A DNA stretch of 64,000 nucleotides from Isoetes taiwanensis (taxonomy: Eukaryota; Streptophyta; Lycopodiopsida; Isoetales; Isoetaceae). The notes under the pieces were generated by a model. That model ran no database searches. It worked only from the letters and a program-made list of their open reading frames with translations, and was not told where the DNA came from. This document shows, piece by piece, positions 16,784 to 39,183 of the stretch. The stretch spans positions 1,721,288-1,785,287 of the forward strand of contig JAJEKV010000131.1 of the NCBI GenBank assembly GCA_021234155.1. The letters are read 5' to 3'. The stretch's first letter is position 1. Each line of letters opens with the position of its first letter. A program made the position numbers and the translations under genes.

Positions 16784-16819
<36 letters not shown>
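16784..16819 (+). repeat. Homopolymer of 36 T
   Basis: This tract sits exactly at the left border of direct repeat A. The corresponding place in repeat B has only GGCTTTTTTT. It may be an expanded T run at the element boundary or the A-tail of a minus-strand retroposon. Confidence 0.9.
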
Positions 16820-16821
<2 letters not shown>

Positions 16822-16947
16822 TATAGACCCCCTGTATATTCAGTTGAATACTCTAATTAGTAAAGATAATAAGTTGTCTTATGCCGAAATAAGAAGGTAT
16901 GTCATTCTTTATTACTGTAAATAATTTTCTTATTGTTTGGCTTTGTA

Positions 16948-17053
16948 TGGGTATGGCTTAACCATCAATTGGATGGATGGGGTCAACCATTCCCATGGTC
17001 ACAGTTTACATTATGCAGGGTTCTTGCATGTTTAAATGGTGTGTTAAGCTATA
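16948..17053 (+). other. Inverted-repeat structure in repeat A
   Basis: TATGGCTTAAC and GTTAAGCTATA enclose about 80 bases and would pair with one G-U. The same outer stem is better preserved in repeat B. The inner stem seen in B has been lost here. Confidence 0.5.
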
Positions 17054-17506
17054 CCTCCACGGTTGATGGTGGGTTTTTTTATTTTACTTTAAACTCTAAC
17101 CCTGGTGACATTAGGGCTTTGTTTATAAAAGAAATGAGTGATCGTAATATAATACAGTCATAGAAGCTCTAGTCTAATGACAAATAAGAGCATAGGTTGG
17201 TAAATTGTTGCCAGTTACAGGAAATACGGGCGTTTATAACAAAGATTATATGGTGCTGCCTGCCGACATACGTATATAGTAGATATGTATGTGACTGACT
17301 TTGGATAACCATTAGTAAAACTTACAAGTATATGTCTGCTTTAACTTATACACTAAGGGAATTTGGTAGACATATGTAATCATGATGCTGGTATGGTCAT
17401 CCTTAAGGTATACCAAATGTTAATTTGTATTTTCTATTGTTTAGCCTAGGTGGCAAAATATTTAACTCCAGCTGTAGCAAAGAATTTTGCCTGACCAGTC
17501 TGGATT

Positions 17507-17890
17507 TTGTTTGACCATATCCAATTCCGAAACCTAAATAACCTTTTGGCGGGGTTAATGGGCTATAGCTCAGACGGTGAAGAGTCTTCCAGCTCAGATA
17601 GAGAATGGCTGGATTCTGAGGCTCTTAGGCGTGATTTTGAAGATTGTGGCATCTTCTCTGGTTGCGAAGGTGTAAAGATGGAACCTCGTGGCTCTAGAGG
17701 TAGATCTGGACAAAATAAGAACCCTTATAACAGGGATGATAGAGCTGGTTTTCAATCGGGACCTAGGGCTTCTGGTAGAAAGAGACAAGGGGATTTTATG
17801 GCTGCACAAAGCGTGGATGAAACACAAGAGATAGATGAGGATCTGGAATTGAATCAGGTTCTTAGATTTATGCTTTTTAATAGATTTTAA
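17507..17890 (+). CDS. Small acidic-then-basic ORF in repeat A, unknown function
   Basis: The frame is 127 residues from 17507, or 110 from the better-placed MGYSSDGEE start at 17558. The N-terminal part is serine- and acid-rich (SSDGEESSSSDREW). The middle is basic and glycine/arginine-rich (RGSRGRSGQNKNPYNRDDRA and SGPRASGRKRQGD), the composition of RNA- or nucleic-acid-binding tails. The C-terminus is acidic. Repeat B holds a copy with a 37-bp deletion that breaks the frame, so only A is intact. Its place in the terminal repeat, upstream of the RT, is where a first ORF would sit. I do not recognise the family. Confidence 0.45.
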   Translation: MFDHIQFRNLNNLLAGLMGYSSDGEESSSSDREWLDSEALRRDFEDCGIFSGCEGVKMEPRGSRGRSGQNKNPYNRDDRAGFQSGPRASGRKRQGDFMAAQSVDETQEIDEDLELNQVLRFMLFNRF

Positions 17891-19393
17891 AGCTGACTTT
17901 AGAATAGACATCAGAGTTTCATGATGATGAACCTTAGGGTTTAATTAGTAAAACATATGGCTTACAGCCGGATTATATTTCCTTAAAGGGATTCTTTCAG
18001 CACTTTTGTGACATGCATCTAAAATAGTACATGCATAGTTGAGGTACTCTGAACTCTGATAATGGGATAATTAAAATTAGCTCTGTTTAAAAGAATAGAT
18101 CCTATTGTTTTTAATATTTTGTTTATGCTGTATTCTCATTCACGCATCCAGTTTTAACCCAAGGTGCAAAAGGGACAATGGGTGATCAGCGAAGAGCTGA
18201 AAACCCCATTGTACCTTTTGGCCCTTGCCCTCTTACCAAGATTATTGCTAACAGAGTATTGATTGGCTGCAGGTACGGGGTTTTCCTCCCATTGTCCACT
18301 TTTTGTTCTTTTGGCTTTTTCTGGATGGATGGGTAAGAATCTTACTTGAAGATGCTTTGGTTTAACCGGGACCTTTATCTCAAGATGTACAAAAAGGGAA
18401 ATTATGAAGAATATCAACTCTGGTTACTTCCAGCTGTAGTATGGTGCTGTTTCTTAAATTGCTAGTTTAGCAATAATGGGTTTGGAAAGTTTAACACTTG
18501 GTACAGATTGTCTGAATGGAACTAGGCTGTTTAGCAACAGATGGCCTTTAGTAGTATTTAAGAATATAGATTTGACTCTATAAAATATGTTAAACTATTA
18601 AAGCTGATCGATGTATAAAAAAGTCTTGATACTGCTATATGCTGTTTAATAGTAATAGAATCTTTTTTTTAAATGATACTGGTACAATGTGAGTGTGACA
18701 GGTTTATGCACATTGGAAAATCATAGTTATGATTGATGATAAATTATAAATACTGGCCATGGTTTAGATATGTATCTAATACCAGGCTACTAATGTACAC
18801 TCTTTGGTATAGACTTAGGAATGAATTTGCATGATTATCACAGGTCCTTTAATATTATCTCCCGATAAAATTGAAGTTTATAATATCAAATACATTGGTT
18901 TAAGTTCACAAAGGACATGCAGTTTAATAAGAGACAATACAGTTTAATAGGAGATTGAAACATGTTGAAATGGATTCATGGCTTAAAGTGTACACACAGT
19001 AAGTTTGTTTTTTTAGGCTGATGCCTATCATGTTGGTTTTTTTTTTTAAAAAGTCGTTTAAATGTACTAAGGCTGTGGAAAATTTAAAAATTAATGTCAC
19101 ATAGGGATATATCTTGCCTCTGTGAGAGCTTGGCTATAGAATAATACATCTATCTGTTATATGCCTGCATAAGACATCGAATAAGTTATACAAAGACATT
19201 TATGGTACATAATGTTTTAATGTTTAAAATATTCTATAACTGATAATGCATCAAGGATCTAAGGAGTTATGGATCGGTCATAAGATGCTACACTGGATGT
19301 GCTCAGTCCAGAGGTAGGATTATAATACTACCAAAGGATTGACTGAGGTGGATGTCTGGGCTAGGATTAACTAGGTCAGACCGGCTTTTTTTT

Positions 19394-19514
19394 AGACACT
19401 TCATCACATTGGTACATCCAATGTCGTCTTGGACCTTTCTGCTATGTGTTTGAGCTTTTAGATAAAACCTATGTCTAAGACTTAGGAGATTTACTATTAC
19501 TATGCTTAAATAAG
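19394..19514. other. Start of the element's internal region
   Basis: Sequence after the end of repeat A is not repeated at the end of B, so this marks the repeat/internal junction. It is non-coding as far as I can see. Confidence 0.4.
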
Positions 19515-20024
19515 TTGAGGCATGGAATATTCAATGATATAACAGATATATTTTTTGATTTATACAATACTAAAGAAGTTATCTTACAGGAGAATTATGA
19601 TGATGATGAGGACTTCGAAATAATACCTCCTACATGGAATGCTCAACTGATGGATATCGAGTATGACAAAAATAGGATTGAATGTCCTAATGTTGTTGTG
19701 CAAACTATCATTTGCTGCATCAGAAATATGAAAGTGCATGAGCTTATTCTAGAAAGGGAGGTTATTAGAAAGCCCGAACAAATTTCTGCTGTCACGCACC
19801 TAGGTTTCAATGAATGGCTTTTGCTGCTACCCAAGATCAACAAACTGTCTGATAAGGAAGATGAGGTATGGGCCTTTATATCTGAACTATATGATAGTCT
19901 ACCACAAAAGATATATGAATGTAACAAGGAGGAGGATGAATGCAGCAAAAAATTCATTATTGGAGTGACAGCATTGGAGGATGCTAATGATATTAAAAAC
20001 TCACATGGAAAGGAGAGGTCCTGA
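19515..20024 (+). CDS. Hypothetical acidic protein of the RT element
   Basis: This 169-residue frame starts MRHGIFNDITDIFFDLYNTK and is acidic, with an ENYDDDEDFEIIPP segment and a later KINKLSDKEDEVWAFISELY helix-like stretch. I recognise no domain. It lies between repeat A and the RT and has the same AT-rich composition. A second frame begins six bases after its stop, so it may be the first part of a longer, now interrupted protein. Confidence 0.45.
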   Translation: MRHGIFNDITDIFFDLYNTKEVILQENYDDDEDFEIIPPTWNAQLMDIEYDKNRIECPNVVVQTIICCIRNMKVHELILEREVIRKPEQISAVTHLGFNEWLLLLPKINKLSDKEDEVWAFISELYDSLPQKIYECNKEEDECSKKFIIGVTALEDANDIKNSHGKERS

Positions 20025-20029
20025 TACGC

Positions 20030-21162
20030 ATGAGCAATGCAGAGGCAACCAAAAATGATCCGGATAGCTTTGATGATATTTTTGGAGCAGACCTATTAAC
20101 AGATGAAGATAAAGCAATACTTATCCCGAGTGGGGAAGACAGCAAGATTGACAAGGAAATTGACTTCAAACTAAATCTGAAAAAACTGCCTGAAGTTCCC
20201 CATTATACCCAATAGATTGGTGGAATGTCAGGGGTTGTTATGCAACCAGGCCCTATGGCGAACTAAAAACTTCGGTGCTTTGGCCCCTCTCAGTGAAGAG
20301 GCTTGGTGCATTCTAGGTGATATTACCAAAGAAAAGGCTAGTGAAGCTAAAGCTGACGCTTACAAGATGATCCGGATGAAAAAAACCAGGGTTAAATTGG
20401 AGGTCAATAATCGTTTCTTCGATAAGAGATGCTCTAAAAGTGATCATCTAATTCTGTGCCAAAAGGGCCATATGGCCTACACAAATATCGTAAGAGATGA
20501 CTTCTATTTAAAAAGGATATGGCGCACCATGTGCCCATACTTTAAATGCATTTGCGAGGATAAGATTAAAAAACAAGCAGAGCCGCAACTATAATCCTAA
20601 TCAATGTGAAGAAAGCATGATCTGGTTCGATCGGGGGTGTGGTATCTGTTGAATAATTTGAATTCCATATATCCAAATATGTCTATAGCTGGGAAAATGG
20701 TAGCCTTTAGAAACTGCCTCAAGACTACCTTAAAAGATGGTGTTGCAGCTTTTATTGCATATTTAGAAGTCAGGAAAATACTCATTGACATGACTTTAGC
20801 TCTTGCAGCTGACCCTAAAGCAGATCTAAAGATTTCTCACCCTAAAGGGCTTATGACTGAAGTGTGCGAGAAAACCATTAAACCCGTGAATTATCTGAAA
20901 GAGGCATATGGCTCAGCCAGCTCTTATAGTTACAGAAATACTAGGCAGAATTCTATAGCAAAAACCTAGTATCAGCATGAATCCTCCACCTAGAATTACA
21001 AAAATGCCAAGTACCCCCAGCAAATCTGTTCAGTCAGACTGTAATAATATTGAGGGCTTGGGAACCCCCAGCAATGTGGGACATTCCGTTACAAAAAGGA
21101 GTACGCATCAAGAGCAATTGGAGGTGGGCAGCATTGCACAGGCCCTTGTTTATGATAAATAA
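20030..21162 (+). pseudogene. Interrupted ORFs between the acidic protein and the RT
   Basis: Four short frames follow one another with little space (20030-20215, 20217-20594, 20637-20969, 20977-21162) in three different phases. They include a segment with KGHMAYTNIVRDDFYLKRIW and two Cys-x-Cys-like spots (CPYFKCIC near 20535). The close packing suggests one or two original proteins broken by stops and frameshifts. No domain is recognised with confidence. Confidence 0.35.
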
Positions 21163-21495
21163 TGTACGATTTGTTTCAATTACATTGCATGGGCTTTATA
21201 TATGATAAATACATTGTTGGCTGTTTTGGTTCAATGTTCTATTCAAATACTAGATGGAAATCACTAACAAATCCTAGTTGGATTACACTAACAAGTGTGG
21301 AGACTTCATTATTTATGATGTACTCCTGGGCCATGTGGCTTTTAATATTCCAGATGTCTGGAACAACAATACATATAAGACCTTTATCATCCGTCTTGGA
21401 TATACCTATGTGATTGCTTAATAAGTAGTATTTACCTGGACTGATTACTAACAGTAGATGTTTTTCAGAATTCGAAATCAGTACAAAGGGATACT

Positions 21496-23431
21496 TTGGG
21501 CAGATGGCATCTAAAAGATGACTCTCCCAAACAGAGCTTGAAGATTATACATTTTCCTTTCTTATCTAGAATACTAGATAAGGTCTGTATACCCAAAATT
21601 GTACACCAAATCATGATAGACAGCCTTGGTGACATAAGGCAAGCAATCATGGATGATACCATGTTTGCTTGGAATTACACTGAAAATATGAAGGACTTAT
21701 GTTATAAGCCTTACTATATTTTTGCTCAAGACAATGAAGATGTTTGTCTCTGCTCTATTCCTCAACTACAGAAGTTTATAGATCCAAGCATCGGCCACAT
21801 TAGGACAACCGACTGCAAGATAGTGCAAAATAAACACCTGAGAAAGATGCTTATGCAGGGATTGAATCATATACCAGATAAATGCCTTGTCTGGAAGGAT
21901 CTCAAAAAAGGCATTGAATCCACCATTGACAAACTATTCGAATTACACAGATTCACTTACCCACATATTGAAGACGACATAAGAGCATGTGTAAAGATGC
22001 AGACCTGTGACAGGGACAAAGAACAGATTAGAGATTCCTTTAAAAAGGATAGTACTAGAGAATTCCCACTCAATGATGCTAATGTCGTTAATAGCATTGA
22101 TTGGCTCAATAAATTTATGTATGTCTCTGGAGTGGATAAAGCGACTAATAACCTCGCGTTCATATGCCCGAGACATGTGAGAGAGATGGCAGATAAAAGA
22201 CTTAGAAGTGGAGACTTCAGACAGTTGGAAATGGACCAAGTGGCAGTCCTATGGAAATGCAAAACAGAAATGTTACAGATTCTACCATATATAGAAGACA
22301 CTTGTGAAAAACTACCGTATCTATTAGGGATCTATAAAGCACATAAAAATGATTATCGATGGATTACAAACGCACATGGTACCGTGTATACAAATTTTGC
22401 CAAAGTCATTACTGTAGTACTAAATATGATAATTGAGATCTGGCCTGACATTGCTAGAAAATCCTGTGACCAGTTCTGTAACTTATTCCCTAATAGAGTA
22501 AATCCTAATTGGATGGTATAATCCATCTATGACGTTGTTTTAAATATGCCAGATAAGATCACCGATGTTTTTGTGGCGGATATCACAAGGTGTTATGAAT
22601 GTATACCGCTTATGGGAGATTCTGGTATCTGCCAAGTGATGGCTAATATCATAAATGAAACATGGAACTACATGAGTGACCTACATTACAACAATAAATT
22701 ATGGAGCAAAGGGGACAAAGAAGATCTTTATGTGGCCAAATGGTTTAAGATTGACCCAAAAGGAAAATGCTGGACTCTCTTAACTAAAGAAAATTGCATA
22801 CGGGCCAATCTTTGGTTACTCACCATATTATAAAAGGCCAGAGTACTTGGATACAGACCAGTGGTATACCCATGGGCTTTGCGTGTCTCGCATGGTTTGA
22901 AGCAAAATTCATATGCAACCTGGCAAAACAAGGAAGATATACAGACACAAGTAAGTTTAAACATGTTTATAGATATATGGATGATCTGCTTGCGCTAAAC
23001 TGTCCGGACATAAGGAAATTTCTGAATATGTTGGATGTTGAAAGTAATGAACGCTTACAGATATATGACATGCGTTTTCTTGGTGTTAAAGAAGAAACCA
23101 TATTTAAATTCAAGGATGACCCAGGTTGCAAGTTTGGATATAAAGGAAATTTTTTGAACATCAGTATAGAGGTCTTTAGCAGGGCTAACGGTGTTTACAG
23201 TATTACCAAGTTTGATAAAAGGGATAGTCTTCCATTTACAGCTATCAAATATATACGGGCTAGTAGTTGTAGACCGTATTTTCAGGCGAGAAATGTTATC
23301 CTCTCTCAAATTCTACCATACATGTATATTAATACATGTCCCAAAGCTGCTGCTAATGATATCATGATGATTATAAAAAACTTCATCGATAATGGGTTTG
23401 ATGAAAAAGGTCTCAGAATAAGTGTTTATAA
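21496..23431 (+). pseudogene. Reverse transcriptase of a Penelope-like (EN-) type element, main part
   Basis: Three frames make up one RT. The 21496-22521 frame has an N-terminal segment CLCSIPQLQKFIDPSIGHIR and the RT fingers motif LPYLLGIYKAHKNDYRWITN. The 22546-22833 frame has catalytic motif A, VFVADITRCYECIPL. The 22794-23431 frame has SGIPMGFACLAWFE (motif B region) and YRYMDDLLAL (motif C). LP..G..K.HKN..RWI, CYE.IP and GIPMG are typical of Penelope-like RTs and of RT-only proteins I associate with algae and bryophytes. An in-frame TAA at 22519 and a frameshift near 22795 break it. No GIY-YIG endonuclease is visible. The 3' end lies across the 13-kb insertion, at 36459-36534. Confidence 0.75.
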
Positions 23432-23660
23432 GGGTAAAAGCACGCTGTGGTGTATCAAAAACGTGCATTTTGACGCCACATTTTGGCACCACCTTTGTGG
23501 TAGAATTGGGTGGTGCATACCGAAGCGGAGATTGCGGGAGTGCGAATTAATGAGCGTCGGTTATTTTGAATTTTATGCCACGTCATTGTCCACCTTTTTG
23601 AATTAAGAAAGAATCACCTCTTCCTCTGTTTTTTTGCCGCTTCTTGCCGATTGAACCCTA

Positions 23661-24188
23661 ATGGAGTCGGAATTGAACGCCACTGGTTACACGATGAAAT
23701 CTCTCTTCAAACAAGAGATTGTGCCCCACGAAGATCTAAAGAAGCTTTGGGGTGACAGAGTTCCAAATAAATCGCTACGTATTTTCCCCAAATGTTTTGT
23801 TCAAACCGAAAAATTAAGGCATATGTTTTCTTGTACAAAGTTGAAGAATCCGAGCAATGAACAATACAAAGAGTTCATGCAAATTTACAAAAGAATTACA
23901 GGAAGCCACATACATGGGGTGGAATGGCTCCTGAACCCGGGCAAAGGGCTTATTATCCGTGATATAAAGGGGAGGGTCATTAATTGGAAGAGCTTCTCGA
24001 TTATTATAAAACTCCCGATGAGAAAGCCGAGGCCGCCTCTTCTAGACCCAAGAGAAAGCATAGGCAAATCCAACCCCGACGAGAAGGAAAATAGTAAAAG
24101 TGACAGGGATGATGAAGATGATAGGGAAATAACCAAATCAGGTTCCTCTAGACCACACATTCAATCTGAACTCACAATCAAAACGTAA
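23661..24188 (+). CDS. Hypothetical protein near the left end of the 13-kb transposon
   Basis: This 175-residue frame begins MESELNATGYTMKSLFKQEI and includes FPKCFVQTEKLRHMFSC and GVEWLLNPGKGLIIRDIKG. From about 23990 a different frame (LLDYYKTPDEKAEAASSRPK) reads more like real protein, so a frameshift there is likely and the KPRPPLLDPRESIG tail may be out of frame. It lies 208 bp inside the left terminal repeat. I do not recognise the family. A DNA-binding role at transposon ends would be a guess. Confidence 0.4.
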   Translation: MESELNATGYTMKSLFKQEIVPHEDLKKLWGDRVPNKSLRIFPKCFVQTEKLRHMFSCTKLKNPSNEQYKEFMQIYKRITGSHIHGVEWLLNPGKGLIIRDIKGRVINWKSFSIIIKLPMRKPRPPLLDPRESIGKSNPDEKENSKSDRDDEDDREITKSGSSRPHIQSELTIKT

Positions 24189-24477
24189 AAGCGAGCAATG
24201 TTCTCGAGACCAAAACATGCCATTGCAGGTATGTTCAATTATTAGTTGTGTTACAACAGTAAAAAAATCTCAAGCTTGATCTAGATTGTTTCTATCAACA
24301 CGTAAAAGGTAACATCAAATCCACTTCAAGAATCGCATGTCTACTACCATTTTGCATCATGTTGGTCAGATTGTCATGTTGTGTCTCTATGATGCCATCT
24401 GGGGCATTTCGCAATGGATGCCGAATGATAGATGAGGTATGTGTGGTGGTGGTGAGTTGTTGGCATCCACACCCCAC

Positions 24478-25055
24478 GATCTCCCACCATGTCCCACACC
24501 ACACCCCCCATCTCCCGCCACTACACTCTACCATCTCCCACCGCCACACTCCCACACCACACACCACCACCACACTCCACCACCACCACCACACACACCC
24601 ACCACCATCACCACACTCCTCCACCACCACCACACTCCACCACCACCACCACATTCCACCACCACCACCACACTTCTCTACCACCACCACCACACTCCAC
24701 CACCACCACACCACACCACCGCACTCCACCATGTCCCACACCACAATCCACCACCACCACACTCCACCACCACAACCACACCACACCCCACCACCACACC
24801 CCCACACTCCACCACCACCACACCACACCCCACCACCACACCCCATCACCACACTCCACCATGTCCCACACACACACCACCACCACCACACACCCCACCA
24901 CCACCACCACCACCCCACCACCACCACCACCACCACCACCACAACAGTTGTGTGGTGTGTAATCGCGGCAAATATGTTGTGTGGTGTGGTATGTGGTGGT
25001 GTGTAGAGACTACCTTGTGTTGTGTGGTGTGTGATTGTGGTTTTCCATCAAGACG
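24478..25055. repeat. CCACCA/CACACC array with a GT-rich inverted arm (left)
   Basis: A run of about 470 bp of CCACCA- and CACACC-type repeats (24478-24950) switches at a small palindrome (ACAACAGTTGTG, about 24940) to a GT-rich arm (GTGTGGTGTG, to about 25055) that can fold back on it. The long open frames on both strands here are products of low complexity, not genes. Confidence 0.9.
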
Positions 25056-26500
25056 CGGGTTTACTATGTTAGGAGGTCGACATATACGTGAGTGTTTTGT
25101 TTTGCGTAACTATGGCGACTTGTGAAGGAATGGTTGGCTGCAACATCAGCTAGGTTTGATAGATGCAAGCAACGATTGCAAGCAAACGAGGATAGGAAAA
25201 ATGATATCAAAAGAAAGATTGAGTTGATGGAGCATAAAGCATCGAAATTAGAGCTGATTTGCAATGATGGCAATCAATCATGACAAAGAAATCCGAAAGC
25301 AACAGAGGGTGTTCGGGTTGTGTTTAACCAAAGGATGAAGAGCTAAATGGTACAAAGGTTGATCGGGCTGAAAATTAAATAAGGAATTAACGTAAACTGA
25401 AATTGAGCTAAAGGCATGTGAAGACTTCATCGCTAGAGCTGCTACCTCAATGCAAAGATTTGAGATTTTTTTTCTGAAATAGTGGTCATGACACTCCTTT
25501 AGATCCCGCACTTCCAATGCTTCCCGAGGCGTAAGAAGAGGGTGATGAAGGTTGTCCATTTTGTGGACGTTATCCGAAATGAGAGGGTAAAAATGTTGCC
25601 AGCCAGATAGCGTAATGCACCACCAATATCACATTCCATGTCTATCACACCATTTGAGGTAAATATTATCATCTCTAACCCTCGCCTAAAGACTCTATTG
25701 ATTTTGAATTTGTTTTGCGACACTCTAGAACCCTGCCGCAGCCCCAAAATACATTATGATGAGACATGGCTTTTGGCTTTTGGTGTTCGAAAGTGGTACC
25801 ACAAGAACCAATAGACACAAGTAAGTCCAAAAGAGGGGTGAAAGCAAGGTTCGGAAGTCTCGATGTTTGTACTTTGTCTCTTTCATCCCGGCTTAGTCTC
25901 TTCTATCCCCGCCGGCTTAGTCTTTTTTTTGTCCTTTATTGTATCTAAAGTGCCCCCGATGAGATCGCCGCTCATTTTAGGGCACTTTAGATATATATAA
26001 ACAGAACATCGAAAAGAGAGTAAAAAGCCCGGCGCGCGACCCTCTTGAATGGTTGTCAACTCACCAGGCTTGATATTGTTCGCCGCAAACAATATAGGTT
26101 CGGCCGCAAAACAAGTGCCTTAACTAATGTTTATCGATGTTGTCACAAGTCTACCGACTTAGTGTTTGCGTAATTGCGTAAATTTGAGACCAAGGATATC
26201 CAACAGTTATCCACGCCTCGACGGTTATGAGATCGGCAAGATACCTCCTATTGTACCTAGAATTCACCCCATTTGATACTCCTAAGTCAATCCTAGTCTG
26301 GACGGCGTGGAGACTCCAAAACGAAATTTGGATAGTCAATCGAATCGCAACAGATCAAGTAAAATACCATGCCACATACATGATTTATTTTTGTATTTTT
26401 CTCGGGTCTTCCTCATTTCAATTATGTTGCGTAGATAAATGCTACCGCAACCGGAAGCCATGACGAAGAGATTCCTATTGCATCTGATTTAGGGGAAATT
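25056..26500. other. Degenerate interior of the 13-kb transposon
   Basis: A short coiled-coil-like plus-strand frame (RLQANEDRKNDIKRKIELME, about 25160-25260) and a CPFCGRYPK zinc-finger-like word (about 25550) hint at decayed coding sequence, but stops and frameshifts are frequent. I call no gene. Confidence 0.35.
25942..25993. repeat. Perfect 14-bp inverted repeat with nested inner stem
   Basis: TATCTAAAGTGCCC (25942-25955) pairs with GGGCACTTTAGATA (25980-25993). The 24-base loop itself holds ATGAG/CTCAT. It could be the ends of a tiny MITE or an RNA hairpin. No partner copies were found in the window. Confidence 0.6.
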
Positions 26501-26507
26501 AATTCCC

Positions 26508-27272
26508 TTGAGATTCATTCTCATGACGGGTCCTTCACGAGAAAAAGTTTTGTGTCAATATGAGCCAAATGCGGATCACGGTGATGAAGTTGACAAAGAA
26601 ACTCGGATCCCGGACAAGATGCACGGCTTCAACGAAGTTCAATACAACCTCAACTCTCCTTGTTCGGATTTTAATGGGGTTTTAGGCAAGTTTTATGACT
26701 TGAAAGAGAGATCCTGCGATCTAGAGCGAAGTGACCATCCGTAAATTGAACCATCAAAAGTTCGCTAGCCTCCGGCCCGGATTTCAAGAGTTCTTAGAAT
26801 GGTGTTTTTCAAAATTTGAGATTGCATTGTGGTCCAAAGATGGCTAAGAGTAATGTTGACTTGTTGACGAAAAGTTCTTTGCTTGAGAATATAAGGGCAG
26901 ATTTCTTTTATTTGGAATCGATGATCGCATCCAACACAAAATTAAAAGTGGTTAATAAGCCAATTTTCCTTAAGGATCTGGCCCAAAGTGTACCAGAAAT
27001 TTTGAAGATACCGGTGACAAACACATTGTTGATAGATGATGCAGATATAAGGGTTCTACCAACCGTAGAACACAATGATATGTCCAAATAGTTTTGCTCC
27101 GACGTTGGATTCCAATTTCCTTTGGAGCAACTCAAACCATGGTCGAGGGACTTCGGGCTCGCGAAAAAGTGTGCCCGGCTTTTATGTGAAGGAACATCAA
27201 ATGTGGAACATGTGGGATTCTCAAGAGTCGCTAAATCGCATGAAAATGCTCGACAAGTATTTTCATAAATGA
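26508..27272 (+). pseudogene. FCP1/HAD-type phosphatase-like gene captured in the transposon
   Basis: Three frames in succession encode one FCP1-homology domain. SDFNGVLGKFYDL (about 26665) is motif I, normally DxDx[TV]L. RPGFQEFLEWCFSKFEIALW (about 26778-26835) is the helix-strand after it. KVVNKPIFLKDLAQ and NTLLIDDADIRVLPTVEHND (about 26945-27075) are the K-containing and DD motifs. GFYVKEHQMWNMWDSQESL ends it. Plant FCP1-like proteins dephosphorylate serine or threonine on proteins. Frameshifts near 26750 and 27080 break it, and motif I has N where the second catalytic D is expected. It is a captured or domesticated host gene inside the 13-kb element and is probably not functional. Confidence 0.7.
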
Positions 27273-27499
27273 ATCTTGTAAAACTTTTTTCAAGTCAATA
27301 TAAGTAAAAGAATTTCTATGATATGTGTTGTACTTTTTCAATTTAAAATATTTGAATGGATTGTGAGCAAATGTTCTCGTGTGTGTTTAGAACTAGAGAT
27401 GATAGAGCTTCGCTAGCCCCACGACTATCTAAAGCCAAATACACATCCGGAAGTGGTCTTTGAGTGGAACCGAAATCGTCGTGATTAGCTCCAACCGAC

Positions 27500-29458: not shown

Positions 29459-29459
29459 T

Positions 29460-32400
29460 ATCTAGCATTATCACAGGGGGGCTTTTTTGTGGTTTTATAC
29501 TTTTTTTTGCATGGTTTTACTATGATTCTGGGCCTGTATTCGTTCATGCATACTATTTGGTATTTCTAGAGTGTCCCTTATCTGCACCGTCCATCTAGTC
29601 CATCTCAAATGATTGTACGGTTGTGGTTTAAGCTTTTTGCATGGATTATCTTGATATGCATTCAAATTAGGCAAACGTACTTTGCTTCTGTCTTCTTCAA
29701 AATCTAGCAAGCAGCCTATTGGTAGTGTGAGGGCGTGGTGCTGGAGTTTCAACTAAAATTTTAGAGGTAAGAAGTGTTGTTTTTCCGTCTCTTGATTTGA
29801 TTGTCTTTACGTGGATTAAACCTGAAGAGCATGCCATTTTCCCTTAAGTAATCTATTCTATTGCAGCGGAGAATGCTTGCAACTGCACATCTGATGCATG
29901 CATGGAAAGCTCTAAAAGTGATGTTTTACAGAACGAGTTACGTATTTGGAGTATATGCTTGCAGACCCATCTTGGGCCCGTGATGCATGCTGGCTCAAAA
30001 AGCCATGTTTCCCGGACCTGCCATGATCTCGATCGTAGAACACTTTTCTGCTCCTTGCTTCAAAACGTTTAGTTCCTCAAAATTCCTATGCTATTATTGT
30101 TCTCGATCGGCAAACACATTCCACCGCGGATCCCCGTTGTCGGATCCCGGCCCATTCCACGACCCTAGTTTGGTTTCCCTCTTTGCCCTAGTTCGCTTTT
30201 GATGCTATTATTGTGCCCATTTCACACAAGGACAAATACCTATTGTTGTTAAATAAAATATCAAGTATAGCAAATATTAATGCTTGCATTCCTCTAATCG
30301 TGTGCGGCGAAAATGAGGAGAATGGCACGCAATGCACGCAACCCACCACGTGCGGACGCGGCGAGTGATTCAAAGCGAAGGAATAACATATGAGATTAAT
30401 CACCCCGCAAGAGGATGCCGCCGCGGCTCAAGAAGCCGAAATCAATGAGCATGTCGAGGTATTCGTAATGCATTACATGTAGATAGAACTCTAAGACAAG
30501 AAGACCACCGGACCGCCTAGCCCCATTAGAGATCCTAGCCCGGTGAGAAGATTAAGAAAAGGGAAGCAATTGTTGAGAATTACGATGATGATGAACCCGA
30601 TTAGCATACATACGCCCGTCCAAGTGACACGATAATTCTGAAACCAACAAGAAGAAATGGAAAAAAAAAAAAAGAAAAGGCCAAAAGCAAGCGGGTTCAG
30701 TAAAACAAAAGGGCCAGTTGGTGGTGATATTTCCATAACAATAGGCATTGGTGGCAATGAGATGTGGATCCTAAAATGATAGATAACATTTTAGAATTTT
30801 TCATGGACCATTGTTATGCGGGACTAGTTGCAACAGAGCGAGGATCAAACCTAGATCACTTGCACTTCCAAGGCACAATTTAAACTCAAAAGCGGTTTGA
30901 GTACTGAGGTGCTGCAAAGCATTATTGAAAGCGACCATGAGATGGGACACTTCAAAGCCGGTAGCAAAAAATAATGTGCGTGGACACTTAAGGACACCAA
31001 GTTGCATTGCTTTGAAGGCATGTTGGGTTCTTGTATGAAAGATTTTGGTAAACCCCATTTCGGTGTTACATTCCATGCATAATGTGTCATCTGCTGAATT
31101 GATGAGAGGAAAAGAGAGATATGCACTTTACTGGAAAGGAGAGATCAAAGATGAGATTTGTTTGGATCCCAAAACCTTCTTAAAAAGGTCCAAAGATTTT
31201 GCAAATTATAGCATGCACAATCGTCGCGCAAAGCCACCTCTAACATATGCAATTACGAGAGATGATTAGAATCGTGCAAATTTTATCTAAGTGCACAATG
31301 GGCTATACCTACAAATGGGCAGAATCTAGACCAAAGAAGAGTTGAAACAGCATATGACTTGATGATGAATCCAGCCCGGGCTACTCGTGAGAAAGTTTCT
31401 TTAGTTTTATGGGGACCGCCACCAACAAACACGACCTGGATCCTCAAGAGCTCGTAGCAGTAATCCATTTGCTAATCCACCAAGGTATTTTGACGAGCCT
31501 CAACCCGTAAACGAAGACCGAGATGAAATTATTGAGGCACATGTTGCAGACCGAGTTCAAAATACAATTGTAGTTGGTGATGCAGGCGATGATGAAATCT
31601 ACCTAACAAACTGGAACTCATCCTTTGTAGCATTTAATGCTTTCTAGTATCACAATGCTAGATATTTTGTTTAATGTCACATTTGCAATAAAAGGAAACC
31701 ATAAAAACTATTTCTTTTCCATCTCTCATTCCTATGTTTTGTTGTACAATTGTTATTGTAATACTTTCTTTCAACTTTGCAATTAACCTCTTTTATCGCA
31801 CATTCATGCGGGATATTGATCACCCCAACATGACACCTATACATAATGCACCACTTGCTCCCGAAGTCAACAATGACAATGAAGCGAAAATTATTATAGT
31901 CCCTTTGAGAGCCCATCGGTGAAAGCGAACCTCAATTAGTTCCTCCGGCATCGGCCGCGACCACCACCTCCATATGGTGAAGACCCCATTGGCGTGATTT
32001 CATTATGGCTAGTCGGATATATCAATGACATGAGGTCATCCATGCAAAGAAATCCGAAACGCATTAAACTCCATTGAAGCCTTTATACATGATGCACATG
32101 TTCGGTTGGGCGTTGATCGGCAAAAGGCGGTTCGCGTACTCAAATCAACAGGCTCCATGCTATTTGCAGACTATTCCTTAGACAAATCAACCAAGATGTC
32201 TCCCGCATTATAGGACACATTTGATTTTAAGGTATACAAACACCATAATATATGTTTTCCATCACACATTGACATTCTATGTCATTTCTACACATTATTC
32301 AATAATATTGTAGTTCTAATGCTTTATAATTTTTTCTTTCATATTTTAGCTTTTTTTTTAAAATTTACATTCTATTGCAATTATTTCCAACATTCAATTG

Positions 32401-32500
32401 TTACCCTAACATAAACCATTGCATTATTAAAAAACATATGAAAATCCCCCTAAGACCCCCTTTGGTTTGGGTGCATATTCACACACGGGGGTCACGTAGG
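29460..32500. mobile_element. About 3-kb insertion splitting the transposase gene
   Basis: The two halves of the minus-strand transposase gene are separated by this segment. It contains decayed plus-strand coding pieces (for example DPKTFLKRSKDFANYSMHN near 31180 and LDPQELVAVIHLLIHQGI near 31430) that I cannot assign. I did not find clean terminal repeats or a target duplication, so both ends are approximate and it could also be an internal rearrangement. Confidence 0.35.
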
Positions 32501-32765
32501 GCAGCGAGAGCCCTTAAATTATATTATATACGTATGAAATTGACACCATATAGTACATTAAATGAAATCTTATAGTATTTCGCACACTTGCACATACCGT
32601 ATACAAAAATTTGTACAAGGATACCCCACAAACGAGGTACGCTATCTACGGTCCACATCAAGGAATATAAGGCATATATGCCCATCCGAGGGCTCTCGTT
32701 GCCCGGAGTGACCCCCCGTGTGAATATGCACCCAAACCAAAGGGGGTCGTTTGTGTACCTAGCCA
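32447..32765. repeat. Inverted duplication of about 65 bp within the transposase gene
   Basis: The segment at about 32447-32517 (TTTGGTTTGGGTGCATATTC then a G run) is the reverse complement, with a few mismatches, of about 32690-32757. The two arms enclose about 175 bp. The right arm belongs to the transposase coding frame, so the left arm is a fold-back copy of coding sequence at the edge of the inserted segment. Confidence 0.7.
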
Positions 32766-33779
32766 CAAAGTAAAATGGTCTAGAAGCCTTGAATTGAGAT
32801 GCTGCACCATCTGAAAACACATAATGTCTCTTTGGAACCCTTCCTTTATGCTCCAGATATTTGTGGTGCTTCATGAAGCAGTGTTGCACGAACAAAGTAT
32901 CGTGTTCCCTATCATCTGATACATAGTAATGTGTTTCCTTGATAATCTCATCTGCCACTGAGTCATAATCGATATGTTATTTGAACCAAAATGGTAATCC
33001 GTTATTGACCCAAATACGATCGACCCGCACCTCCTCTTGTTCCTTGAATGTATAGTTCTGCAAAAATCCACTACCGAAAGACATGCATCTGTTTGGGAGA
33101 TTCTCCAGAAGCTCCTTAAACTGCTTTTTTACGCCATTGGTACCTGAAATTATCGCGATGGAAAGATTTTTAGACGCTCTTCAGGTTTATCCATATTTCG
33201 ATTAATACTTGATGAGTTAGTCTCCTACCGAACTTCGAGGCGATTGTCTTTTCATAGTCAATGTACTCCCATTTCACTTTCCTACTTTTGCCACTTCCTT
33301 CCATGGGACAGGTCTGAAATTTCTTGATTCCACACGACTCACAATTTCCAAGGATGCACCTTCTTGTGAAACTCATCTAATTCACTCTTTGGACACAATA
33401 TAGATCTCCACAAGCTTCACTGTACTTTGCAATTTTATCTTTGGTGTGCCCTGCATTGACCAAGTTCATGTGATCTACAAACATCGCAGGTGCAAGTGCA
33501 ATTCTTCGGATGTTTGGTTCTCATCCCATTGAGTCCATCCACTAGCATTTGCATCCTCACGTGTTGAATGCAACAGCAACTATTGAAGTCCTTCAATTTC
33601 ACAACAAACCAGGGTTTTAGCTTCTCAAAAGCTCGAAGGCGAATCTTAATTTTACGGATGTTGGTCCGTAAAACCTCTTGAACAATAGCATCTCGCATGA
33701 AATGAACACTAAACCTGTTAGGATGTGTATACCACACCAAACCATGCACCATACCATGCCTCACACTCATCATATTCAC
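32580..33779 (-). pseudogene. DDE-like transposase, N-terminal and core part
   Basis: Three minus-strand frames follow one another. From 33779: KLKPWFVVKLKDFNSCCCIQ, QMLVDGLNGMR and a CTCDVC cluster. At 33170-33376: CILGNCESCGIKKFQTCP and KWEYIDYEK, a CxxGxCxxCG zinc-binding pattern. At 32524-32958: HYYVSDDREHDTLFVQHCF and HYVFSDGAASQFKASRPFYF, where SDG..SQFK carries a likely catalytic Asp. The order zinc cluster, D-motif, then HGKG..DG (in the other half) fits a single transposase. It is interrupted by frameshifts and by the insertion at about 29460-32500. Confidence 0.55.
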
Positions 33780-33799
33780 GGAGCAAGCACCTTAGTCTT

Positions 33800-34420
33800 T
33801 TGTGTACATTACCACACACCACACCTCACCCACCACACACCATACCATTCACCACACACCATACACCAAATGGTGGGTGTGGAGTGGTGGTGGAGTGTGG
33901 TGGTGGTGGGGTGGTGGTGGTGGAGTGGGTGGAGTGGTGTGTGGTGTGGTGGTGGGGGGTGGTGGTGGGGGTGGTGGTGGTGGAGTGGTGTGTGGTGTGG
34001 TGGTGGGGGGTGGTGGTGGTGGTGTGTGTAGTGGTGTGTGGTGCTATGATGTGGTGTGGTGGAGTGTGGTGGTGGGGTGTGGTGGTGGTGGTGGTGTGTG
34101 GTGGAGTGTGGTGGTGGTGGAGTGTGGTGGGGGGTGTAGTGGTGGTGGTGTGGTGTTGTGGATTGTGGTGTGATGTGGTGGTGGAGGGGTGTGGCGTGGG
34201 ATGTGTGTGTGCATGTGGTGGTAATGTGGTGGTCACCAAAGATGTGGTGGTAGTCTATGGTGGTGGGATAGATGGGGTGTGGTGGGGTGAGGGGGGGAGA
34301 TTCTCCGATCATACATTAACATGCACACACCCACATGACACCATGGACATAACAACCCAACCCACACCACACCACACCACCATCCGCGACACCACACACA
34401 TCACATCACATCACTTTTAT
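33800..34420. repeat. TGGTGG/GTGTGG array with a CA-rich inverted arm (right)
   Basis: A short CA-rich arm (33805-33868) switches at ACACCAAATGGTGGGTGT to a long TGG- and GTGG-rich run (33869-34295), followed by CACACC again near 34360. This is the mirror image of the array at 24478-25055: long CA arm then short GT arm on the left, short CA arm then long GT arm here. Frames predicted here are low-complexity artefacts. Confidence 0.88.
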
Positions 34421-35940
34421 CCTATTTCGTCGACATAAAAAATCTGCCTAGCCCGCTCTCATAAACACTTCCTAAATTACGTTACACCCCGATAATAATT
34501 ACATTCCTCTTCTAATCATTAGAAAAGGATATGGGTCCTAAATCCTGTTCCTACGTCCATTTTTTGGCGTTTCATTCCCAATTAAGGCCAAATCGAAGAA
34601 GTTCATTAGGCAACATGGTAGGATCCATGTTCGAGAGATCACTACGGCTATTGTAGGGTGACCGAGGAGGGCATTCGCACATGTTAAATGGGGCTGCGTG
34701 ATAAATCTGCGAAGGTGGATATGCCTAAATCCACCTTCTTTGCTGATTTCGAATCCAACCTAAAGGCATACAACAGACTGGATGCTGGGCCTTCAATGGC
34801 TATGCTTGGAGTCAGATTGACAGGAAGAGAGCTCTTAGACAGAGTTCATGAGCTTATGTTACATGCTTTTTGCAAAGGCGTTTCACCACCGGGGGGATGG
34901 AGCAAATCGGCAAACCTCATCTGTTAAATTGGGATGACCGGAAAGCTTAGATGCTTTAGTGCGAGAAAACAATAATTTTGGATGCACCAGTTCTCGAGCC
35001 AGTCATACCAGCATTTCCTGTTGCTTAGGAAATCATGCATGTAAATTTAGTTCTCGGGTACAGAGCTTTCAATGGAAAGCCAAATTTTGTAAAGCCAAAT
35101 TTTGTAAGATCCTTTTTTTAATATATCATACTTTCCAACAGAGTTGTGCTTGAATCGATTGTCTTTATTCAACAAAATTTGTATCTCGGGATCGATTAGT
35201 TATAGCTCAAATATTTTTAGACCTGCACACACACACCCAAAGAAAGGAGTACTCAATTACCATGTTCTAATAATATTCCAAACATTAAATATTGCATTTC
35301 GGACTAGAGTCAACTACACACAATTCACATGCGCATAAGGTATACACAAATCAACGTACAACACAATAACCACCACATGCACCACCATACTAAGCACCAT
35401 AACTAAGAAAACATGATTAACGTAAATAAACTAGCACCCTGATTCCTCCGGATAGTGGGCAGCATGTTCTTCTCTTACATTTCTCTCCAATCTTCTAGTT
35501 CTAACATTCTTTTTGTGTTAGGAGACACTCGGTGTTCTCAATCCAAAATTTTTGAATCTTTTTCTATATGTTCATCTGAAATTGCATCGAATCTTTTAGC
35601 CCTCTTGTAAGAAACCCATTTCCCACCATTGTAATCGATCTCTTCCCTCTTTTTCTTTGCCTTTTGCAGGTTTCTTGGGTGAACACCTAATACCTTTCCA
35701 AGATCTCGGCGGCTGATTTTGTCACTTGTTTCAGAATGCGCGGTGTGGTCTGAGACATTACAAAGGCAGCTATTCTTGGCTGCTAGGCGGTCATTGCTTT
35801 AGTAGAGAGTTTGACATCTGCATGGAGTCCCGAAGCTCCTTTATAACGATGCTCTTGGCTTCCAAATCCTTTAATTCTTCACCTATGAATTTTTTCCAAT
35901 GTTTTATCCCTCAAAAAATCAAGTAAAATTTCTTTCTTAG
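34421..35940. other. Interior of the 13-kb transposon, no gene recognised
   Basis: Frames are short and without family features. A 79-residue frame at 34688-34927 (DKSAKVDMPKSTFFADFESN) is not recognised. A tandem GCCAAATTTTGTAA occurs near 35080. Confidence 0.35.
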
Positions 35941-35943
35941 GTG

Positions 35944-36182
35944 CTATCCTCCATTCTTTTTGGTCTGTTTATGGAAAGACGTTAGTAAACTAAGGACAAT
36001 CACGGCGTTCTTGCTTGCACTTCTTGATGAACCGGATCCTTCGCGCCAATTCCGCAAGCTCAATTTTTCTTCTCTTCTTCTTTTCCTCTGGCCTTTTTCT
36101 TCAACATTTCTTGTTCCTTGGTTCTTCTTCTTTTCTCCCATGCGAAATGCGGTTTGTGTACAGTTACCTCATTGACATCCAT
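35944..36182 (-). pseudogene. Basic coiled-coil-like ORF near the right end of the transposon
   Basis: On the minus strand, from the ATG at 36182, the frame reads MDVNEVTVHKPHFAWEKRRR and then a long charged helix-like run rich in K and E. It passes into another frame near 36060 with IELAELARRIRFIKK- and NAVIVLSLLTSFHK-like sequence. It probably represents the end of a coiled-coil protein. Its position mirrors the hypothetical gene at the left end. I do not recognise the family. Confidence 0.3.
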
Positions 36183-36454
36183 ATCCACAATGGATTGGAG
36201 CTTGCAGAGGAGGGAGCCAAAGAAACGGGGCCTTGAGCAAAGAACAGGAAGGGGCCAAAGAATAGGAATTTGAATTTGAATTTTAGTTTTTGAAATTAGA
36301 ATTTCTCCCACAAATTGGGACTCTATTCTTAAATACCGGCAGCTGAGCGGTGCCATAATTATACTTTCATACCACAAAAGTGGTGGATGCAACGCCACAT
36401 TTTGGGGGGACAGGGGGGACAGCCGAATTGGAACACCACAGCGTGCTTTTACCC

Positions 36455-36534
36455 ATAAATACGTGTGCAACAACGTATTTCCTCATCTAAGATATGATGC
36501 TGATATTCTACAACAATACCTATTGCCAAACTGA
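36455..36534 (+). pseudogene. Reverse transcriptase C-terminal end, right of the insertion
   Basis: After the second ATAA copy the frame resumes from the codon split at 23430-23431 and reads YVCNNVFPHLRYDADILQQY to a TGA at 36532-36534. The hydrophobic pattern suits the RT C-terminus. No endonuclease domain follows. Confidence 0.7.
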
Positions 36535-36725
36535 ATGAGGTATGCTTTATTTAAGTTATCCTTTCTTCAGTTTTTTATTTTTCATCTAAAAAAGTGTTTT
36601 TAGTGGCTGTTATGGGTATGGCTTAACCCCTGCTGTGGCAATGGGGGTCAGCCTTCCCCATGGTCACAGTTAATAATAGATAAGGTGTGTTAAGCCATAT
36701 CTCCACGGATGGTGGTAGGCTTTTT
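36535..36725 (+). repeat. Extra partial unit ahead of repeat B with a nested inverted repeat
   Basis: The segment 36612-36722 is a diverged copy of 36862-36995 inside repeat B, offset by about 250 bp. It holds a nested structure: outer TATGGCTTAAC (36620-36630) with GTTAAGCCATA (about 36690-36700), inner CTGTGGC with GTCACAG, and inmost ATGGGG with CCCCAT. Repeat A lacks this extra copy, as if A were truncated on its left. Confidence 0.6.
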
Positions 36726-39183
36726 TTATTATAGACCCCCTGTATATTCAGTGGAATACTCTAATTAGTAAAGATAATAAGTTGTCTTATGCCGAAATAA
36801 AAAGGTATGTCATTCTTTATTACTGTAAATAATTTTCTAATTGTTTGGCTTTGTATGGGTATGGCTTAACCACTGCTGTGACAGTGGGGGTCAGCCATTC
36901 CCATGGTCACAGTTTACATTATGCAGGGTTCTTGCATGTTTAAATGGTGTGTTAAGCTATACGTCCACGGTTGATGGTGGGTTTTTTTTATTTTACTTTA
37001 AACTCTAACCCTGGTGACATTAGGGCTTTGTTTATAAAAGAAATGAGTGATTGTAATATAGATAGATAGATAGATAGTAGTTTTAACGTCACGCCACTAG
37101 GCAGCATCCAACTGGACATGTGACCACACACCACACTACATTGCTTGGTTGGGCCTGCCCACACTACAGTCATAGAAGCTCTAGTCTAATGACAAATAAG
37201 AGCATAGGTTGGTAAATTGTTGCCAGTTACAGGAAATACGGGCGTTTATAACAAAGATTATATGGTGTTGCCTGCCGACATACGTATATAGTAGATATGT
37301 ATGGGACTGACTTTGGATAACCATTAGTAAAACTTACAAGTATATGTCTGCTTTAACTTATACACTAAGGGAATTTGTTAGACATATGTAATCATGATGC
37401 TGGTATGGTCATCCTTAAGGTATAGTATACCAAAGGTTAATTTGTATTTTCTATTGTTTAGCCTAGGTGGCAAAATATTTAACTCCAGCTGTAGCAAAGG
37501 ATTTTGCCTGACCAGTCTGGATTTTGTTTGACCATATCCGATTCCGAAACCTAAATACCCTTTTGGCGGGGTTAATGGGCTATAGCACAGACGGTGAAGA
37601 GTCTTCCGGCTCAGATAGAGAATGGCATCTTCTCTGGTTGCGAAGGTGTAAAGATGGAACCTCGTGGCTCTAGAGGTAGATCTAGACAAAATAAGAACCC
37701 CTATAACAGGGATGATAGAGCTGGTTTTCAATCGGGACCTAGGGCTTCTGGTAGAAAGAGACAAGGGGATTTTATGGCTGCACAAAGCGTGGATGAAACA
37801 CAAGAGATAGATGAGGATCTGGAATTGAATCAGGTTCTTAGATTTATGCTTTTTAATAGATTTTAAAGCTGACTTTAGCATAGACATTCTCATTCATGCA
37901 TCCAGTTTTAACCCAAGGTGCGAAGAGCTGAAAACCCCATTGTACCTTTTGGCCCTTGCCCTGTTACCAAGATTATTGCTAACAGAGTATTGATTGGCTG
38001 CAGGTACGGGGTTTTCCTCCCATTGTCCACTTTTTGTTCTTTAGGCTTTTTCTGGATGGATGGGTAAAAATCTTACTTGAAGATGTTTTGGTTTAACCGG
38101 GACCTTTATCTCAAGATGTACAAAAAGGGAAATTATGAAGAATATCAGCTCTGGTTACTTCTTATATGCTTATAATTGTGTTGTTCTTGAAATATGTCTA
38201 GGCCAGCTGTAGTATGGTGATGTTTCTTAAATTGCTAGTTTAGCAATAACGGGTTTGGAAAGTTTAACACTTGGTACAGATTGTCTGAATGGAACTAGGC
38301 TGTTTAGCAACAGATGGCCTTTAGTAGTATTTAAGAGATCATATAGATTTGACTCTATAAAATATGTTAAACTATTAAAGCTGATCGATGTAAAAAGTCT
38401 TGATACTGTTATATGCTGTTTAATAGTAATGGAACCTTTTTTTTAAATGATACTGGTACAATGTGAGTGTGACAGGTTTATGCACATTGGAAAATCATAG
38501 TTATGATTGATGATAAATTATAAATACTGGCCATGGTTTAGATATGTATCTAATACCAGGCTACTAATGTACACTCTTTGGTATAGACTTAGGAATGAAT
38601 TCGCATGATTATCACAGGTCCTTTAATATTATCTCCCGATAAAATTGAAGTTTCTAATATCAAATACATTGGTTTAAGTTCACAAAGGACATGCAGTTTA
38701 ATAAGAGACAATACAGTTTAATAAGAGACAATACAGTTTAATAGGAGATTGAAACAGGTTGAAATGGATTCATGGCTTAAAGTGTACACACAGTAAGTTT
38801 GTTTTTTTAGGCTGATGCCTATCATGTTGGGTTTTTTTTTAAAAACTCGTTTAAATGTACTAAGGCTATGGAAAATTTAAAAATTACTGTCACATAGGGA
38901 TATATCTTGCCTCTGTGAGAGCTTGGCTATAGAATAATACATCTATCTGTTATATGCCTGCATAAGACATCGGACAAGTTATACAGAGACATTTATGGTA
39001 CATAATGTTTTAATGTTTAAAAGATTCTATAACTGATAATGCATCAAGGATCTAAGGAGTTATGGATCGGTCATAAGATGCTACACTGGATGTGCTCAGT
39101 CCAGAGGTAGGATTATAATACTACCAAAGGATTGACTGAGGTGGATGTCTGGGCTAGGATTAACTAGGTTAGGCCGGCTTTTT
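36726..39183 (+). repeat. Long direct repeat B of the RT element
   Basis: This matches repeat A (16820-19393) in the same orientation. Relative to A it lacks about 37 bp in the small ORF, about 240 bp after it and a further 22 bp. It has an extra segment of about 108 bp at 37057-37165 that starts with a GATA microsatellite. The small ORF is therefore broken here: only 37594-37866 remains open and it starts in the wrong frame. The repeat ends at GGCTTTTTT, where a minus-strand LINE fragment is attached. Confidence 0.85.

Follow-up and report, generated by a model that had tools for sequence, protein, structure and literature searches.

How a retroelement without a recognisable endonuclease might express its proteins and find its integration sites in a plant genome is the question raised by a locus of the lycophyte Isoetes taiwanensis. 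The locus lies in a stretch of 64,000 nucleotides (assembly GCA_021234155.1, contig JAJEKV010000131.1, positions 1,721,288 to 1,785,287 of the forward strand), which we refer to as the window and to which the coordinates below apply. A first-pass annotation, made from the letters of this stretch, had proposed a Penelope-like element (PLE) in which long direct repeats, the pseudo-long terminal repeats (pLTRs), surround a reverse transcriptase (RT) gene. Both the motifs and the layout support the assignment to a Penelope-type retroelement of a plant without a recognisable endonuclease. We think it probable that the family to which this element belongs is expressed by splicing, with cassette exons, an RT recruited by element RNA, and priming at T tracts. 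The features of the element are as follows (a slash in a splice motif marks the exon boundary; ORF, open reading frame).

16784..16819 (+): T36 tract at the 5' boundary, an encoded T tract plus extra T; other left ends are also T-rich.
16820..19393 (+): left pLTR, terminating in a T8 tract (b) at 19386-19393.
17558..17857 (+): exon 1, 100 codons, acidic and then RG-rich, with a conserved donor CAG/GTT at its end.
18160..18310 (+): structured RNA with a three-way junction, inside intron 1 of the left pLTR, with covariation.
19590..21163 (+): exon 2, ORF1, decayed here; acceptor AG at 19588-19589, stop TAA at 21160-21162 directly before the donor TAAT/GTACG.
21469..23431 (+): exon 3, the 5' part of the RT, broken; acceptor AG at 21467-21468, in phase 0 with exon 1.
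23432..36454 (no strand assigned): nested DNA transposon of 13,023 bp, foreign to the element; 22-bp terminal inverted repeats GGGTAAAAGCACGCTGTGGTGT and a 4-bp target site duplication ATAA at 23428-23431 and 36455-36458, identified by eye.
36459..36539 (+): 3' end of the RT; stop TGA at 36532-36534, donor GAG/GTATGC at 36540.
36633..36669 (+): hairpin X, shortly before T tract (a) and with compensatory changes.
36721..36727 (+): T tract (a), opening the right pLTR.
36728..39184 (+): right pLTR, terminating in CCGGC-T6 and a T-rich junction CTTTCT8.
37575..37833 (+): second, frameshifted copy of exon 1 (259 nt), carried by the right pLTR.
37906..38041 (+): right-pLTR counterpart of the structured RNA, which has lost part of the 5' arm by deletion.

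The two pLTRs lie on the same strand, as had been described, and the alignment of 16813-19392 with 36721-39184 contains 2236 matches and 53 mismatches (97.68% identity) together with several indels, the largest of 222 nt. The RT gene between them is split by the nested DNA transposon and resumes at 36459. The insertion had been recognised in the first-pass annotation, and the estimate of ~9.4 kb for the element without it agrees with the 9.3-9.4 kb or so obtained here. The transposon includes low-complexity stretches rich in CCA and in TGG as well as ORFs on the minus strand, one of which contains SDGAASQFK, and those of its ORFs that were tested gave no convincing match in Pfam.

The RT gene is present between the repeats, but in a decayed state. 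Its open pieces (21445-22521 and 22788-23606, of which the element part extends to 23431) carry the Penelope-like motifs quoted in the first reading. A TAA interrupts the gene at 22519-22521, the frame changes near 22790, and 8 residues that follow GIPMGFAC in copy E1, one of ten other loci (E1-E10) that were each read as a 20-kb stretch, are missing. These pieces gave no RT family match in Pfam at E-values up to 1; two intact RT copies matched RVT_1 at E 3e-4 and 7e-4, below the cut-off for that model, and one of the two RTs gave a weak match (E 0.04) to the group II RT model of NCBIfam. The GIY-YIG endonuclease, reported earlier as not visible, was indeed not found in the ORFs of the window (Pfam, E up to 1), nor in four intact proteins, two of ORF1 and two of the RT, at E up to 10. 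ORF1 gave only weak matches in Pfam (E 0.05 or worse), two ORF1 proteins gave nothing in NCBIfam, and one RT and one ORF1 gave nothing in PHROGs. Searches of PDB sequences returned chance matches only (E 0.05 or worse), no relatives were found in viral contigs, and single-sequence structure predictions for the two window RT pieces had mean pLDDT (per-residue confidence) values of 36 and 32, too low for use.

The sole relative found outside the genome is L030 (L-numbers denote further fetched copies or sequences), a decayed animal-type RT fragment with GIPMGTNCAPLLADLFLYSYEA on a contig from the assembly of a Bathymodiolus (mussel) symbiont. This fragment, which contains GIPMGTNCAP, was found by a pattern designed to include a known animal motif, and within an 8-kb target its match has E-values of 2e-7 to 5e-6; it is evidently a contaminant, PLE-like RT DNA of animal origin in a contig deposited as the genome of a bacterial symbiont. 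Another match to a genome contig, L029, was dropped as a chance match. The motifs of L030 and those at the N-terminus of the Isoetes RT (CPC, GHIRTTD, YDKRD) resemble what we take to be the Naiad branch of PLEs, and the presumed signatures of the Naiad/Chlamys clade (CxC, GH.(T)xD, GIPMG..C.P, YDKRD) look like those of the Isoetes RT. That clade carries an N-terminal GIY-YIG, whereas none was found in the Isoetes proteins scanned.

The family is large in the genome of Isoetes taiwanensis. Searches with the window RT piece, the RT N-terminus, ORF1 and exon 1 were scored for the best 142 of 3304 first-look candidates and the best 150 of 2392, of 2265 and of 328 candidates, respectively, and open frames are frequent among the matches listed (640-750 aa for the RT, 515-575 aa for ORF1). 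Long same-strand repeats surround the internal part at seven of the ten other loci (E1, E4, E5, E7, E8, E9 and E10), and no long repeat pair was present in the 20-kb stretches of E2, E3 and E6. In E1, E4, E7 and E8, the internal part lies between direct repeats of ~2.0-3.0 kb (the left repeat of E4 is cut by the fetched edge), with left-right identities of 94.2% in E1, 95.6% in E7 and 98.75% in E8; E5, E9 and E10 are tandem with a period of 6.8-7.2 kb. The pseudo-LTRs and the tandem or partial-tandem arrangement of PLEs are thus represented in the family, and the genome search has brought to light the same repeat-internal-repeat layout and open ORFs at loci other than the one annotated first.

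The arrangement of the blocks was also compared across the genome. A count of neighbours that took in the best 150 of 328 exon 1 matches, the first 82 of 150 ORF1 matches and the first 62 of 150 RT matches placed an RT 1-3 kb after 40 of the 82 ORF1 matches (0 in the mirrored control). Exon 1 stood 1860-2950 nt before ORF1 in 35 of these 82 and 3-7 kb after it in 25, with both in 13 (control stretch, 1), and no exon 1 match had an ORF1 or RT on the opposite strand within 5 kb. The count searched 1-4 kb upstream of ORF1 only, so that an exon 1 fused to ORF1 would escape it, and 96 of the 150 exon 1 matches had no ORF1 or RT neighbour among the matches listed. The coding blocks bear the mark of purifying selection: the median ratio of nonsynonymous to synonymous differences per site (pN/pS) is 0.23 for the RT (28 pairs), 0.27 for ORF1 (10 pairs) and 0.48 for exon 1 (36 pairs), and the four least diverged exon 1 pairs have dN/dS values of 0.18-0.25.

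The ends of the copies point to the manner of their integration. The internal pLTR junctions, which serve as the comparison, contain T6-T8 and occur in two forms, (b) as GG[C/G]T8AGA[C/T]AC and (a) as T7-T9-A after hairpin X. Runs of T10 or more were found at 35 of the 38 outer ends examined, and one further run is interrupted. At 5' ends, these are T10-T30 in 15 of 16 cases and T11-T36 in 6 of 6 (the window included; a row for E10 was excluded, as it is not a 5' end). At 3' ends, they are T15-T27 in 5 of 7 (the tract of the element in the window is interrupted and E7 has none), T13-T25 in all 8 anchored copies of 12 others fetched (L097, L098, L099 and L101 have no 3' anchor), and T11 at the 3' end of an array of related units at 54-64 kb of the window. 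Visual inspection of the five elements for which both ends were fetched showed no target duplication apart from T. In four copies (L057, L064, L065 and L066), the T run before the new copy is preceded by sequence that resembles the 3' end of another pLTR, so that old copies seem to have been targets. Such observations suggest integration into T tracts primed by annealing. For the Penelope element PAc of Anolis, which has tandem pLTRs, the RT is described as initiating internally on the RNA at sequence homologous to the cleaved DNA (PMC11167929; statements on published PLEs here and below refer to the portions of the sources that were covered), and complementary repeats are said to help terminons attach to overhangs (PMC12477314). 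We propose that the Isoetes family might follow the same logic, with U8 and A tracts in place of those sequences.

The T tracts might instead derive from a polyadenylated antisense RNA template, the poly(A) of which would be read as T at the 5' end. The length of the 5' runs (T10-T36) would fit such an origin, and antisense templates have been proposed for PLEs (PMC3846280), but runs of T13-T27 are found at the 3' end as well, and both ends coincide with the internal T6-T8 tracts. We regard this origin as unlikely and favour priming by annealing at T tracts.

The coding region between these ends appears to be divided among exons. The first-pass annotation had noted an extra, acidic and RG-rich ORF in the repeat. 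The ORF is there, with its frame intact in the left pLTR and shifted in the right one, but it is most likely exon 1 of the coding region and not an additional gene. In 16 of 17 copies, the motif CAG/GTT is kept near residue 100, whereas the sequence beyond this donor differs between subfamilies, and the alignments of exon 1 across subfamilies mostly end at residues 89-107. The frame is free of stops in 12 of 14 copies, and the 5' leader of exon 1 could not be aligned between copies. Intron 1 was read at eight loci that have exon 1 upstream of ORF1 (the window, E1, E4, E5, E7, E8, E9 and E10), so that the PLE feature of introns kept in genomic copies is present here, as judged from these loci and from the conservation of the splice sites.

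The one or more extra ORFs that had been placed between the repeat and the RT resolve into pieces of a single broken exon, ORF1, of ~525 aa, which is intact in other copies. In 11 of 12 copies, ORF1 begins directly behind an acceptor AG and without a conserved ATG. The RT exon likewise lacks a conserved ATG, and its acceptor AG stands at phase 0 in 13 of 13 copies found and in 19 of 19 scored among 20 further copies (L034 fell outside the scoring script and fits by eye; for E3, the position entered as the RT start is not the genuine one). A branch-like CTRAY precedes the RT acceptor in 16 of 19 copies and in 2 of 19 control stretches.

Both blocks also end in the same manner, with a stop 0-11 nt ahead of a conserved donor. 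For ORF1, the stop and donor (mostly TAAG/GTATG, with TGAG/GTATG or close variants) were found in 12 of 13 copies of one branch and in 10 of 20 copies of a second set, the other 10 showing none within the 351 nt read. In a divergent branch, ORF1 ends as TAG/GT in 3 of 5 copies fetched, L087 having lost the GT and L091 showing no ORF1 end. In all 9 copies of one set and in 18 of 20 of another, a donor follows the RT stop after 1-11 nt (15 of the 18 were scored by script, and L079, L080 and L082 by eye); the two exceptions, L067 and L072, have C-termini that differ or end early. With a stop just before its donor, each block looks like an internal exon that carries its own stop at its end. The end of exon 1 and the starts of both blocks are in phase 0, so that joins of exon 1 to ORF1 and of exon 1 to the RT are both open, and we infer that exon 1 may be spliced alternatively to one or the other cassette to yield two proteins with a common RG-rich N-terminus.

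Two other ways of reading this arrangement have to be weighed. In the first, a single mRNA would join exons 1, 2 and 3, and the RT would be reached through a +1 frameshift at the ORF1 stop or through readthrough. In the first set of copies, the RT does stand in the +1 frame across the junction of exons 2 and 3, which the stop abuts, but the codon preceding the stop varies, and the RT exon ends in an identical stop-plus-donor layout. Moreover, divergent copies with TAG/GTATG would put the RT in frame 0; the phase between exons 2 and 3 thus varies between branches while that between exons 1 and 3 is constant, for which reason alternative cassette exons are preferred over an improbable frameshift. 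In the second, the repeat-borne ORF would be a small element gene in its own right. The ORF does have an ATG of its own, its open frame often passes the donor (up to 200 aa), and two of the exon 1 alignments extend to residue 110. We give this little likelihood in the face of a CAG/GTT kept despite the differing letters behind it and of downstream blocks that have no conserved start codon at their conserved N-termini.

In addition to its exons, the element carries two folded RNAs. The first, of ~150 nt, is present in each pLTR copy read. In 11 sequences its 49 pairs have 94.2% of cells paired, and 18 pairs show compensatory changes, compared with 7.5 +/- 1.8 in shuffles (attained in 0 of 500, as on four of five measures); slid controls had 40-53% of cells paired and 3-10 compensatory pairs, and the column-shuffle z was -10.9 (12 sequences). 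Across 264 kb, a model of this RNA gave 29 matches in the same sense, six within the window (the rows used to build the model match by construction), and 21 weaker echoes of its hairpin on the reverse strand. Against Rfam at E up to 10 it met only microRNA, small RNA and long non-coding RNA models, far below their gathering scores. Known ribozymes, the hammerhead included, were not found in the whole window at Rfam gathering scores, and at E up to 5 the right repeat and four 10-kb loci gave four chance matches only. Reading the junction GUGAUCAGC..GCUGAAAA as hammerhead-like was rejected by eye, as neither the spacing nor the expected G.A pairs fit. The CAGGTAC within this RNA, with GCTAA..GCAGGTA present in 21 of 27 segments, looks like a possible recursive splice site, but the same bases pair with GUACCU.

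The second RNA, hairpin X (37 nt), has 97.4% of cells paired and 3 pairs changed on both sides in 13 sequences. Its covariation score was attained by 0 of 500 shuffles, its number of pairs changed on both sides by 28 and its number of pair types by 353. Within the pLTR of the subfamily to which this element belongs, a second hairpin X with a T tract is located at 16964-17004 and 36872-36912, which suggests a nested use of the boundary signal.

The array at 54-64 kb of the window, the kinship of which surfaced in the search for empty sites with 34 flanks, carries the structured RNA as well.

54204..64000 (-): tandem array with a unit of ~2.63 kb, T junctions of the same kind where readable, and the structured RNA.

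The structured RNA of the pLTR occurs in four of its units (54902-55055, 57535-57686, 60167-60314 and 62779-62909), with junctions of form (b) at 59476 and 56847, of form (a) at 58868 and 56239, and the T11 3' end at 54214. Exon 1, ORF1 and the RT were not found in the array by tblastn, which gave only chance-level matches (E 0.7) on the opposite strand, and we read the array as a candidate RT-less satellite of this PLE family. The presence of the RNA in autonomous copies as well as in RT-less relatives suggests that it may act in cis.

The position of the copies in the genome bears on a further alternative. Three consecutive copies of TTTAGGG, which we take to be the telomeric repeat, were not found in the sequence examined. 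Of the 150 RT matches listed, 52 on contigs of known length above 5 Mb were examined, and none came closer than 200 kb to the end of its contig, where 1.1 were expected (contig ends may differ from chromosome ends). It is very unlikely that the family is a telomere-type, endonuclease-less PLE of the Athena/Coprina/Selaginella kind that has merely drifted inward, for although GIY-YIG was not found and such elements are reported from Selaginella (PMC9033089, PMC12477314), these counts and the T-tract ends speak against it.

Comparison with described PLEs places the family, in which alternative cassettes and T-tract priming remain our preferred reading, near several of them. With canonical Penelope/Poseidon elements, as represented by PAc (PMC11167929), it has in common the pLTRs, the tandem and partial-tandem copies, an RT start site set, as we propose for Isoetes, by sequence shared by RNA and target, and a conserved RNA fold in or close to the pLTR, a hammerhead in PAc and a different structure in Isoetes. 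It differs from the descriptions of these elements in that no GIY-YIG is recognised and a hammerhead was not found, in the pLTR of about 2.2-3.0 kb, in the exon-split coding region and in the T-tract ends. With the endonuclease-deficient PLEs of the Athena/Coprina group, Selaginella and conifers (PMC9033089, PMC12477314), it shares the absence of a recognised GIY-YIG and the plant hosts, and the short RNA stretch that in terminons is complementary to the target end and lies beside a ribozyme motif (PMC12477314) may be likened to what we propose. In contrast to those elements, the Isoetes copies are interior in the matches checked, and their annealing tract would be U8 against A tracts. In Penelope families of Adineta vaga, the pLTR likewise holds the start of the ORF, a spliceosomal intron occurs in one family and intron-containing copies are mobilised, but the pLTR contributes 12-22 residues rather than a whole exon of 100 codons, and no second protein is described in the portion covered (PMC3846280), whereas two are predicted in Isoetes. 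No such element was noticed in the parts covered of the literature on plant or lycophyte PLEs, on PLE alternative splicing and on PLE structured RNAs, although an earlier description is possible in Gladyshev and Arkhipova 2007, Craig et al. 2021 or Lin et al. 2016; the word Penelope was absent from the text-search listing for two Isoetes genome papers (PMC8566536, PMC10541799).

Other features of the window lie outside the element. A Copia-type element on the minus strand at 8397-13283 is flanked by direct repeats and is a young insertion, because these are identical over 300 nt; inverted repeats of 266 nt (92% complementary) at 39248-43894 enclose LINE-like RT ORFs at 41862-43587; and an open frame of 274 aa at 2723-3547 resembles, by eye, a host ACT-domain protein.

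The mechanism that we envisage on the basis of these sequence comparisons would begin with the splicing of exon 1 to ORF1 or to the RT, giving two proteins that share a probably RNA-binding N-terminus. A stop codon close to the last exon junction escapes junction-dependent (nonsense-mediated) decay, and each of the two stops, lying near the last junction, would be spared in this way. The RT would then bind element RNA via the pLTR RNA, hairpin X or both, and copying would start at the U8 tract paired with the 3' end of an A tract in the target, so that new copies would come to sit in T tracts. Tandem arrays might result from the targeting of an old copy's T tract or from the copying of tandem or read-through RNA.

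Several points weigh against this account. The identity of the RT as a PLE depends on motifs, layout and one weak outside match and not on a tree, and since ORF1 has no detected relative, the lack of an endonuclease means that none is recognisable. The alternative splicing is read from splice sites and phases alone, and an acceptor in a 3' exon for the RT donor was not identified. Some exon 1 alignments across subfamilies continue up to 10 residues beyond the donor, and the constraint on exon 1 is weaker than that on the RT (its highest pN/pS is 0.63), with silent sites near saturation in many pairs. The counts for the pLTR RNA are favoured by the derivation of its structure from the same alignments; on one measure, further pair types, 15 of 500 shuffles attained the observed value, and the structure slid by -1 keeps 10 pairs with double changes. 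At the ends, 3 of the 38 deviate (L051 and E7 have no T run, and the tract at the right end of the element in the window is interrupted), the 34 flanks yielded no usable empty site within the sequence examined, and the extra T could stem from slippage or from the target.

To our knowledge, it is still an open matter how endonuclease-deficient PLEs leave telomeres, how PLEs choose their sites and why they keep introns. A more far-reaching proposal, which we put forward tentatively and as possible rather than probable, is that the Isoetes family represents a PLE lineage in which mutually exclusive cassettes share a pLTR exon and integration proceeds by U8/A-tract pairing without GIY-YIG, that ORF1 is a new nuclease or an RNA chaperone, and that the pLTR RNA belongs to a new catalytic or RT-recruiting class that also mobilises RT-less satellites. 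The family should be useful for such questions through its many open-frame copies, its simple predicted target in T tracts, its explicit splice junctions and its strongly covarying RNA, and the RT-less satellite could serve as a natural experiment on the RNA parts required.

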